From Streptomyces showdoensis (lineage in GTDB: Bacteria; Actinomycetota; Actinomycetes; Streptomycetales; Streptomycetaceae), in the NCBI RefSeq assembly GCF_039535475.1, contig NZ_BAAAXG010000026.1, forward strand, positions 1,860,001 to 1,924,000: a DNA stretch of 64,000 nt, given 5' to 3'. Below, piece by piece: positions 1-2,078 of this stretch (position 1 is its first letter; every line of letters starts with the position of its first letter). Both the position numbers and the translations under genes were made by a program. Below the pieces are notes generated by a model, which saw only the letters and a list, made by a program, of their open reading frames with translations, had not been told where the DNA came from and did not search any database.

Positions 1-698
1 TGGCCCTCGACGAGGAGCTTGGCGATGGAGTGCTGGACGCCGCTGATGCCGTCCCTGCGCTGGGCGCCCGGGACCTGCTCGCCGAAGGGGGTGGCGCGGG
101 CCCAGGACTGCTCGAAGACGGTCGCCAGGTACTCCACGAGGCCGGGGTGGCGCAGTTCCAGGGCGACCTGGCGGTCCTGGCGGGCCGGGATGAGGGCGAC
201 GGAGCGGTCGATGATGATGAGCCGCTCGATGCTCTCCTCCAGGGTGCGGACCTGGAGCCGGTCCATGCCGGCCCGTTCGAGGTAGACCTGCATGCCGGGG
301 CTGTGGCGGACGGTGTGCTGGTAGAGGGTGCGCACCCGCACGCCGCGGTCGAGGAGCGGCTGGACGCGGTTGAGCGCGGTGCTGAGGGTGTGTTCGCTGC
401 GTCCGCCGCCGGGCTGGACGGTGAGGAGCTCCTGGGAGCACTCGGCGGTGGCCCGGCCGAGGACGGCGTCGATGCGGTGGATGCCTTCGAGCACGGTGAT
501 GGCGTGGGTGGTCGAGGGGTCCTGGGCGCTGATCGCCATGAACGGCTCGAACGTGCTGGACAGGCCCATGGCCATGGCCCGGCGGTCCTGGATCTCGCGC
601 TCCAGGGGCTGGACGAGCCGGGCGAGCGCCGCGGAGGGGGGGACGGGTCGCAGCCAGGACGGATCGTCCGGATCCGGATGCAACAGGTCGAGATCCAT
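1..698 (-). CDS. LuxR-type transcriptional regulator, C-terminus cut by window edge
   Basis: The reverse strand is open from a start at 698 to the window edge. It encodes about 232 residues beginning MDLDLLHPDPDD. The residues resemble the N-terminal sensor part of Streptomyces LuxR-family regulators with a TrmB/phospholipase-D-like fold: an N-terminal helical stretch, a VLEGIHRIDAVLGRA segment, an LLDRGVRVRTLYQHT strand-helix and an RLIIIDRSVALIPA strand. The LuxR/GerE helix-turn-helix expected at the C-terminus lies beyond position 1, so the family call rests on the sensor part only. The frame stays open upstream of 698 and no clear ribosome site precedes ATG 698, so a slightly longer protein from a TTG or GTG is possible. 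It is transcribed away from the DPVWD peptide gene across about 260 bases, the usual arrangement for a local regulator. Control of that gene is inferred. Confidence 0.7.
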   Translation of the reverse strand, partial: MDLDLLHPDPDDPSWLRPVPPSAALARLVQPLEREIQDRRAMAMGLSSTFEPFMAISAQDPSTTHAITVLEGIHRIDAVLGRATAECSQELLTVQPGGGRSEHTLSTALNRVQPLLDRGVRVRTLYQHTVRHSPGMQVYLERAGMDRLQVRTLEESIERLIIIDRSVALIPARQDRQVALELRHPGLVEYLATVFEQSWARATPFGEQVPGAQRRDGISGVQHSIAKLLVEG

Positions 699-960
699 GA
701 GGCAGGGTGCGGCTTCTGCCTCACTCCTGGTTATTCGTCCGATCCGCAACGCACTTGCGTACAAGTCCGTTCCGGCTGCACAGAGGTCGACATGCCCGTG
801 AGGATGTGTCGGGTCTGTCGGTTTCTGCGGCATATGCACACCCCCCAGGATCCTGTATTTCAGGAACATGATGCATTGCCCCAGTGGTGCCAGCGCAAAG
901 ACTGAGCCATCGTCTTGTACGCGGGGGAGAGGAAACCATCAAGTGAGGTCGAAGCCGCTC

Positions 961-1164
961 ATGTCCACGAAACTGCTTCGCTCGATACTTGCTTCCGTCT
1001 TCATTGGGGCGGCGGCAGTAGGAGCGCTGGCCGTCAGCGACCCGGTGTGGGACAGCACGCCCGCCAAGGTCGTCGCGGCACCGATCGACCCCGTCTGGGA
1101 CTTCGCCCCGGCCGGCCAGCTCGACCCCGTGTGGGACTCCAGCCCGGCGGACGCGGACGCATGA
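961..1164 (+). CDS. Small exported peptide with three DPVWDxxPA repeats
   Basis: 67 residues, family not recognised. Residues 1-26 look like a signal peptide or membrane anchor: a basic N-terminus (STKLLRS), a hydrophobic core (ILASVFIGAAAVGALAV), then a polar region. The rest is almost entirely three copies of a nine-residue unit: DPVWDSTPA (27-35), DPVWDFAPA (43-51) and DPVWDSSPA (55-63). The repeats use different synonymous codons for Asp-Pro-Val, so the peptide sequence rather than the DNA seems conserved. ATG 961 has only a weak GAGG 12 bases upstream. GTG 943, preceded by GGGGGAGAGG, would add six residues. The stop overlaps the next start (ATGA), so the two are translationally coupled. 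It diverges from a LuxR-type regulator. A multi-core modified-peptide precursor or a secreted signal peptide are both plausible; neither is shown. Confidence 0.72.
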   Translation: MSTKLLRSILASVFIGAAAVGALAVSDPVWDSTPAKVVAAPIDPVWDFAPAGQLDPVWDSSPADADA

Positions 1165-1481
1165 CCGTGCCCCCGGACGACCGGACCTTCCGGCGGGAGA
1201 TGGCTTCGGCCTACCGGTCCGGGTGGCACTTCGTCGATCTCGTCACGGCCATCCCCCACCGTGGCGACTCGCTGATGGTCACCCTCTTCGGAGAACCGAT
1301 CGTCGTGGCCCGGGAGCAGGACGAGGACGTCCGTGCCTACCGGTGCCTGCGTCGGCCCCGAGGCGCCCCGCAGCCCGTCCGCTGTGCCATCCGGTACGGC
1401 ATGATCTTCGTCAACCTCGACCAGCGGGACCACCAGCTGGTCGAACCCGAGACCATCACCGCCACCCCCCGCAGTGCCTGA
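1161..1481 (+). CDS. Small Rieske-like protein with altered cluster ligands
   Basis: 106 residues, coupled to the DPVWD peptide gene by an ATGA overlap. The order of elements resembles the N-terminal Rieske domain of ring-hydroxylating oxygenases: an aromatic SGWHFVDLVT start, then GDSLMVTLFGEPIVVAREQ, then RAY, and finally RYGMIFVNLD, which corresponds to the strand after the second ligand pair. Where family members have CxH and CxxH, this protein has CLR and CAIR: both cysteines are kept and both histidines are arginine, with 12 residues between the cysteines. A standard 2Fe-2S Rieske centre therefore looks unlikely. There is no catalytic mononuclear-iron domain. Family assignment is inference from motif order, not from a search. 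A role in processing, binding or electron transfer for the peptide is suggested only by the overlap. Confidence 0.65.
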   Translation: MTVPPDDRTFRREMASAYRSGWHFVDLVTAIPHRGDSLMVTLFGEPIVVAREQDEDVRAYRCLRRPRGAPQPVRCAIRYGMIFVNLDQRDHQLVEPETITATPRSA

Positions 1482-1578
1482 GCGATTCCCCCGTCGTTGT
1501 AGATCGCTCAGGTACTTCCCCCACACAGCGGCGCCATCGCGGACCTGAAACGCGATGGCGCCGTTGTGCATCTCCGGC

Positions 1579-1673: not shown

Positions 1674-2078
1674 TCAGGCCCGGCCCATCGCGCGGGTCAG
1701 CGCGATCTCGATGACGACCCGGTCCGGGTTCGGGGCCGGGACCCGGCCGTAGCGCTCCGCGTAGCGGTCCACCGCGTCCGCGACCACGTCCGCCTCGGTG
1801 CGGATCACGGCGACGCCCTCCAGGGTGGCCCAGCGCCCCTTGTCGACCTGGCAGACCGCCACCTTCGCGCCCTCCGGGCCCGCCGCCAGGACGTTCGCGA
1901 CCTTGCGGCTGTGCTTGTTGGTGATCACCCGCGCCAGCCCGTTCTCCGGGTCGTACGTGACGCCCACCGCCACCACGTGCGGGGTGCCGTTCGGCCGGGG
2001 GGTGGTCAGGGTGCACATGTGGTACTCGCGCCAGAAGCTGAGATACGAGTCGCCGGGGTTCCTCGGGTCAGTCGCCAT
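1674..2078 (-). CDS. PPOX-class F420-dependent oxidoreductase
   Basis: 134 residues, a usual length for the split-barrel flavin/deazaflavin reductases (pyridoxamine-phosphate-oxidase-like fold, TIGR03618 type). Visible features are WREYHMCTLTTPRPNGTPHV at the N-terminus, with the first barrel strands that bind the cofactor phosphate, then VITNKHSRKVANV, and then the WATLEGVAVIRTEADV strand typical of the family. Streptomyces use coenzyme F420, so an F420H2-dependent reductase is the default reading, but the natural substrate cannot be told. The ATG at 2078 opens the longest family-like frame. It is divergent from clpB and shares the intergenic region with the HspR-type operator. Confidence 0.85.
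   Translation of the reverse strand: MATDPRNPGDSYLSFWREYHMCTLTTPRPNGTPHVVAVGVTYDPENGLARVITNKHSRKVANVLAAGPEGAKVAVCQVDKGRWATLEGVAVIRTEADVVADAVDRYAERYGRVPAPNPDRVVIEIALTRAMGRA

Follow-up and report, generated by a model that had tools for sequence, protein, structure and literature searches.

The locus at the start of the window (the whole 64,000-nucleotide stretch of Streptomyces showdoensis DNA analyzed here) would, in our reading of the sequences, encode a peptide signal and its receptor: a polymorphic, Phr-like exported peptide and a regulator combining a TrmB/PLD-like domain with a LuxR-type helix-turn-helix (HTH). We put the probability of this reading at roughly 0.8. A peptide pheromone with a cytoplasmic receptor was favored because the repeated core is exported, one regulator domain is matched to the core, the HTH and promoter region stay nearly constant, signal and receptor appear to be exchanged as a module, and the same pairing is found elsewhere. 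The original prediction of a peptide signal with a dedicated regulator thus gained strong support from co-inheritance, from residue matching, and from the pairing in another family with a different gene layout.

The minus-strand regulator gene, the 67-aa peptide ORF, and the 106-aa Rieske-like ORF were all confirmed in the window sequence. The features of the locus are as follows (window coordinates).

1..833, minus strand: divergent regulator, the putative receptor, cut by the window edge (whole-genome ORF of 350 aa, L023:9817-10869)
834..960: intergenic region, 127 bases from the probable regulator start to the peptide ORF, conserved across loci (82 loci aligned)
961..1164, plus strand: peptide precursor of 67 aa, beginning with a signal sequence of Sec type (visual inspection and a crude rule) and continuing with three units
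1039..1053, plus strand: unit 1, DPVWD (read from the sequence)
1087..1101, plus strand: unit 2, DPVWD (read from the sequence)
1123..1137, plus strand: unit 3, DPVWD (read from the sequence)
1161..1481, plus strand: Rieske-derived protein of 106 aa that lacks the cluster ligands; its gene shares 4 bases with the peptide gene and was found in one genus
1524..1568, plus strand: 18-pair hairpin 3′ of the Rieske-like gene (-38.7 kcal/mol, z = -8.2)
1674..2078, reverse strand, convergent to the peptide operon: PPOX-class oxidoreductase gene, matched at 152 of the 154 loci

As originally described, the peptide ORF carries DPVWDSTPA, DPVWDFAPA, and DPVWDSSPA; its stop codon (TGA, 1162-1164) overlaps the start codon of the 106-aa ORF (ATG, 1161) in the sequence ATGA; and the divergent gene, which leaves the window at base 1, encodes a LuxR-type regulator. 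The regulator probably starts 12 codons inside the 350-aa ORF, at base 833, since the reading frame 5′ of this point is interrupted by a stop codon at several related loci. A ribosome-binding-like GAGG lies 5′ of the peptide gene, and the intergenic region contains two related decamers, CAGGATCCTG (846-855) and CAGGAACATG (861-870), which are possible candidates for a shared operator. The hairpin at 1524..1568 probably marks the end of the peptide operon and is not a textbook intrinsic terminator, since no T run follows it. Between this hairpin and the PPOX gene lies a GCCGGGT tandem repeat of approximately 10 copies (1577-1647). The nearest match of the PPOX gene was an F420-dependent subfamily, with a score just under the cut-off of that subfamily. 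Seen in the whole-genome sequence, the genes follow one another as dnaK-grpE-dnaJ-hspR, regulator (reverse), peptide, Rieske-like gene, PPOX gene (reverse), and clpB, which places the cassette between hspR and clpB (the labels dnaK, grpE, dnaJ, hspR, and clpB come from reading the ORF sequences, without a family search). No dedicated peptidase, transporter, or histidine kinase gene was found in the window's locus.

A protein search with the peptide matched four proteins, including the window's own, and 17 of 100 genomes (the window's own included) had a match at E = 0.01 or better. Flanks were taken for 13 of the 16 other matches, and three matches outside Streptomyces (L016, L018, and L019) were dropped as chance-like. 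The regulator, Rieske-like, PPOX, and clpB genes were found in the same order at all 13 flanked loci, with hspR visible at 12 (not at L032). Among the 293 genomes searched in the order, 225 carried the Rieske-like family, and every one of them belonged to a single genus of nine; two of these (G247 and G312) matched at approximately 1e-7 only. The final set of 154 loci comprised the window's locus, the 13 flanked loci, 80 from named Streptomyces (the best 80 of 553 confirmed), and 60 hand-picked from the 225 genomes. Some of these loci are one strain fetched twice, under a named and an unnamed entry, and the set was therefore dereplicated. All 154 had been selected by the Rieske-like gene or the peptide, and their signal sequences were assigned by a crude rule rather than by a signal-peptide predictor. 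The parser placed the peptide ORF directly 5′ of the Rieske-like gene in 154/154 loci. In this later set, Rieske-like proteins were 79-100% and regulators 50-100% identical to those of the window, and the peptide was far less conserved than either. The 20 Streptomyces genomes listed among the 68 without a Rieske-like match had no close receptor orthologue (best E = 5.8e-85, compared with 2e-165 to 1e-186 for cassette receptors). A Rieske protein like that of S. violaceoruber was sought and was absent from all collected loci. Among the 110 loci with hspR in view, a crude merge gave one regulator in 95, two or three in 14, and only one on the other strand in 1.

The unit kept within a locus was shorter than first proposed. 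Repetition was confirmed, but the conserved element is the tetrapeptide DPVW with a looser fifth residue, and not DPVWDxxPA. Across loci the core was [D/E/N]-x-x-W, the same within a strain and different between strains. EPSW, EPTW, DPVW, DPGW, DPIW, DLAW, DSGW, DSSW, DISW, EISW, DIGW, DVGW, DITW, NTQW, and others were observed, with 1 to 12 copies per precursor (154 loci) and Trp as the invariant residue. The first four residues were uniform in 71 of the 78 multi-copy loci (at least two units, from 82 dereplicated loci), compared with 1.9 on average and at most 6 in permutations of the units. Within loci, positions 1 to 4 agreed in 98.8, 99.3, 96.9, and 100% and the fifth in 68% of 981 unit pairs; agreement among locus consensuses at positions 1 to 5 was 50, 32, 25, 100, and 17%. 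Residues flanking the core agreed in 21-53%, and third bases of same-residue four-fold codons matched approximately half the time (0.504 within loci vs. 0.470 between dereplicated loci). Because flanks vary and synonymous bases are near-random, core identity is taken to be kept by selection at the protein level; the codons of the window's three units differ, as had been stated. Recent duplication as the source of identical units was ruled out by the synonymous bases. In one clade the first unit directly follows an AxA-like site (RA|DSAWS) and the last runs up to the stop codon (DSAWS*), boundaries that point to a released unit of approximately five residues. Orthologues without repeats, which the original prediction had listed as evidence against itself, were found in part: the parser counted a single unit in 7/154 loci (8 with L178). 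Such precursors, for example one with a single C-terminal DTVWD, still fit a signal precursor.

The four-base stop-start overlap and the presence of one Trp per unit would also suit a leader peptide whose Trp codons sense tryptophan supply and so set translation of the overlapping Rieske-like gene. We give this explanation almost no weight: the Trp codons are spaced rather than adjacent, the signal sequence is retained, the residues preceding Trp are uniform within a strain, and the paired loci L283, L284, L286, L288, and L289 gave no Rieske-like match.

Regulator distance was correlated with core distance (partial Mantel, 82 loci, partial r = 0.357, P = 0.0005, z = 13.2). The controls were the Rieske-like gene (amino acids and nucleotides), PPOX, ClpB, and the signal peptide that the peptide gene itself encodes. 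The set comprised 150 of 152 loci (2 of the 154 had no PPOX match), reduced to 82 by dereplication at 8% regulator difference. Corresponding values for the other genes were -0.053 (Rieske-like), -0.047 (ClpB), 0.080 (PPOX), and 0.121 (signal peptide). The covariation peaked at regulator residues 148-192. Windows in the HTH gave partial r of 0.045-0.067, and the value for residues 283-312 rose from 0.067 to 0.156 once the rest of the regulator was controlled.

Since the Mantel permutation ignores tree structure, disjoint nearest pairs were examined as well, leaving out pairs with regulators at most 2% apart. Among the 75 pairs, residues 148-192 differed by 0.036 when the core was the same (27 pairs) and by 0.321 when it had changed (48 pairs); same-core pairs were somewhat closer in background (index 0.085 vs. 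0.129). With a changed core, regulators were 21-31% apart in six of the closest pairs, whereas three well separated pairs sharing EPSWG had regulators just 5-7% apart. L105 and L171, nearly identical in background, carry DIGW and EISW with regulators 21% apart, and L046 and L150, distant in background, both carry EPSWG with regulators 7% apart. Counter-cases were also observed: L033/L161 have DPSW and DPGW yet regulators 3% apart, L052/L054 have different cores and regulators 13% apart, and the distant pairs L097/L176 and L040/L042 share a core with regulators 22 and 27% apart, residues 148-192 differing by 0.18 and 0.13, respectively. Overall, a replaced signal seems to come with a replaced receptor.

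Within the covarying stretch, regulator residue 169 followed core position 2. It was V, M, I, or L in 76/77 loci with Pro at that position (one Ala), G, A, or S in 45/46 with Ile, Leu, or Val, and Asp in 27/27 with Ser or Thr. A similar pattern was found at residue 148, and among remote relatives the residue aligned to 169 was Asp in 40/40 with Ser or Thr at position 2. The code was broken in 2 of 82 loci (L088 and L203). On a regulator tree built without residues 144-196, the position-2 class changed four times and residue 169 changed on three of those branches; because of these small numbers, the single-site code depends on few independent events. On a background tree of weak resolution, the class changed 15 times and the residue 13 times; 11 of these changes coincided on a branch, and 10 fitted the code. 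We regard the match between residue 169 and core position 2 as a strong lead, although not as proof.

The regulator consists of a winged-helix-like N-terminus, a central TrmB/PLD-like domain, and a C-terminal LuxR-type HTH that lies mostly beyond the window. The model was built for the protein of L092, 69% identical to the window's (pLDDT 83, pTM 0.49), with a second structural look by VIA-align 2. In the PLD-like domain of the model, the covarying stretch (136-180) runs from one strand through a GGGR loop and a helix into the following strand. A winged-helix N-terminus with a PLD-like effector domain, which defines TrmB-like proteins, and a C-terminal GerE-type HTH, which defines LuxR-type ones, were both found; the HTH resembles those of VqmA, DevR, and NarL. 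No TPR match appeared among Pfam hits up to E = 1, and neither Pfam nor structure comparisons matched an autoinducer-binding or receiver domain. The HTH and the intergenic DNA were among the conserved parts of the locus.

The pairing extended beyond the cassette. Near distant regulator relatives (approximately 26-41% identical), exported small ORFs with [DEN]xxW were found at 17/43 loci, and control motifs at 3 to 11. Three of the 17 were dropped, two as chance-like (L216 and L232) and one (L239) because its peptide is the same as that of L229. In a second set, [DEN]xxW was found at 28/32 loci (L321 was then dropped as chance-like) and exported D[ST]xW at 27/32. Tight control motifs were rare in the same 32 loci (D[ST]xF 2, D[ST]xY 1, D[ST]xL 0, E[ST]xW 0, and [KR][ST]xW 0), and looser ones gave higher counts ([DEN]xxF 6, [DEN]xxY 9, [KRH]xxW 8, and Wxx[DEN] 2). 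The 27 D[ST]xW loci belong to the family of genome G414, which we took to be Nocardioidaceae because its member L290 is Nocardioides mesophilus; a regulator of this kind was present there in 59 of 120 genomes, representing 8 of the 26 genera. Peptides of this family carry, for example, four copies of DTGWN, six of DTGWD, three of DTSWG, or three of DSGWS/DSGW, and its sole miss among the 32 loci (L296) lies near a contig end. In total, an exported pro-peptide adjoined the receptor gene in 154/154 Streptomyces loci and in 41 curated pairs elsewhere. The curated pairs were convergent (tail-to-tail) in 34 cases, divergent in 6, and on the same strand in 1, so the pairing does not follow from promoter sharing. 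One pair, L238 (DPGWQ, same strand), is doubtful, and five loci of a third family (L269 and L318-L321) showed no convincing peptide.

These layouts also bear on a nondiffusible role, in which the exported repeats would remain on the cell surface to bind a partner there, and the tie to the regulator would reflect only linkage and module transfer. Copy numbers of 1 to 12 resemble those of repeat proteins, and in Streptomyces the promoter region shared by the regulator and peptide genes is conserved. We consider such a role quite improbable: the covariation has its peak within a single domain of the regulator and is still seen when the signal peptide encoded by the peptide gene itself is controlled for, the pairing is kept tail-to-tail in another family, and single C-terminal copies exist.

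The 10 paralogue loci of the window's genome yielded one clear pair, although a first scan for repeat-Trp peptides had found none. This locus (L208, G000:C12:265763-266674 and flank) encodes a 39-40% paralogue of the regulator and a divergent exported peptide with DTSWG, probably a second signal pair. At L274-L282, and also at L024, L032, and L034, one to four extra regulator paralogues lie between hspR and the receptor gene. They are approximately 41-54% identical to the window's regulator, with no peptides of their own in view, and are possibly orphan receptors.

The name Rieske-like held for the ancestry of the 106-aa protein and for part of its fold, but not for the cluster ligands. Its Pfam Rieske match was below the cut-off (E = 0.01), and the model (pLDDT 72) kept part of the Rieske fold. 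On reading the alignment, CLR and CAIR stand in place of the ligand motifs CxH and CxxH, and each remaining cysteine was replaced in some of the 36 members (C62 in P0105, P0119, and P0124; C75 in P0107, P0110, and P0117). Compared with Rieske oxygenase alpha subunits, the protein lacks both His ligands, the cluster loop, and the catalytic domain. The proposed coupling to a small redox protein was not supported: ligand histidines are lost, each cysteine is replaced in some members, and the gene was found in one genus of nine. A redox or RiPP enzyme role was likewise rejected, as the iron ligands are gone and the protein is confined to one genus. It may instead be a co-translated, genus-specific scaffold or adaptor, a suggestion that we make with little confidence. 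The C-terminal PRSA (1467-1478) was invariant in the 36 aligned members, and the stretch preceding it varied in length.

A multi-core RiPP would explain the repeats as cores of a modified peptide (modified at Trp, for example), with enzymes encoded elsewhere and a regulator that merely controls the genes. Several identical cores per precursor, the invariant Trp, and a small enzyme-derived gene overlapping the precursor gene speak for it. We nevertheless judge it unlikely. Beyond the Rieske relic and the convergent PPOX gene, the window's hspR-clpB interval contains no modifying enzyme; the Rieske-like protein, devoid of ligands, is restricted to one genus while the peptide-regulator pair recurs in Nocardioidaceae; and the tracking of the core by one regulator domain would be left unexplained.

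Under the signal-receptor reading, the Sec system would export the precursor, and signal peptidase together with other proteases would liberate short peptides (DPVW or DPVWD in this strain). These would re-enter the cytoplasm, for instance via an oligopeptide permease, and bind the TrmB/PLD-like domain of the divergent regulator, a step suggested by the observed co-inheritance and matched residues. Binding would then alter the action of the LuxR-type HTH at the conserved promoter region that both genes share, as well as at other targets. Strains would carry different signal-receptor versions (pherotypes), seemingly exchanged as a module, while the promoter region, the HTH, and the Rieske-derived neighbor stay nearly constant.

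Phr-, PapR-, and NprX-type peptides act with RRNPPA receptors in Firmicutes. They resemble the present system in the short exported precursor adjoining a cytoplasmic regulator gene, in a mature unit of approximately five residues, and in receptor-matched variants; they differ in that the receptor here is modeled as a TrmB/PLD-like domain with a LuxR-type HTH and not as a TPR protein, the signal is [D/E/N]xxW in 1-12 copies, and the host phylum is another. Polymorphic signal-receptor loci are also known from agr and ComQXPA, in which signal and receptor likewise vary together between conserved flanks; here, however, the repeats are linear, the putative receptor would bind DNA, and the window's locus has no histidine kinase gene. 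In contrast to TrmB and TrmBL2, the regulator has an extra C-terminal LuxR-type HTH, is bacterial, and has a proposed peptide rather than sugar ligand; with LuxR-type regulators it shares the C-terminal HTH but no matched autoinducer-binding or receiver domain. The system would therefore be Phr-like in its working yet not RRNPPA (for this receptor family, see PMC9765709), because a TPR receptor domain was tested for and not found.

The logic of linear peptide signaling is known; what is new, as far as we have seen, is the family of signals, the class of receptor, and the phylum of the hosts. The locus may thus represent a new signal-receptor class, although on a stricter view it could count as one more variety of peptide signaling. 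The open-access literature (subscription papers and preprints lay outside the scope) yielded no description of the peptide family or of its pairing with the regulator, and a keyword check found nothing on the locus in a 2026 paper about orphan proteins of Streptomyces (PMC13118837). A broader claim, which we hold to be fairly probable, is that actinobacteria possess a large class of linear peptide pheromones of their own, with Sec-exported [D/E/N]xxW peptides, TrmB/PLD-like LuxR-HTH receptors, a readable code relating receptor residue 169 to peptide position 2, pherotypes that differ between strains and move as modules within Streptomyces, and a probable role in controlling antibiotic production.

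The last point relates to S. coelicolor. Insertions in SCO3664 (annotated as "regulator") were among those raising actinorhodin more than 50-fold, and complementation worked for 12 of 16 regulator mutants, a SCO3664 plasmid being listed, in the available part of that report (PMC6585502). In the accessible portions of two others, SCO3661 is clpB (PMC2687793) and SCO3665 and SCO3666 are LuxR-family regulators (PMC3282765), so by gene number SCO3664 should fall in this locus. From the gene order in other strains, SCO3664 is probably the receptor gene.

Transport of [D/E/N]xxW peptides by BldK is a testable idea. The BldK signal reportedly has a mass of approximately 655 Da, and none of the 13 computed pentapeptide masses equaled this value. 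BldK is described, in the portion of the source available, as an oligopeptide permease transporting a signal needed for development (PMC5650626).

Streptomyces signaling is known mainly for gamma-butyrolactones. These are the only signals named for Streptomyces in the accessible portion of a 2026 quorum sensing review (PMC13220807). If our reading is true, most sampled Streptomyces species would have a peptide signal in strain-specific versions with a predicted specificity code, and cell-cell signaling in these antibiotic producers would be testable with cheap synthetic tetra- or pentapeptides.
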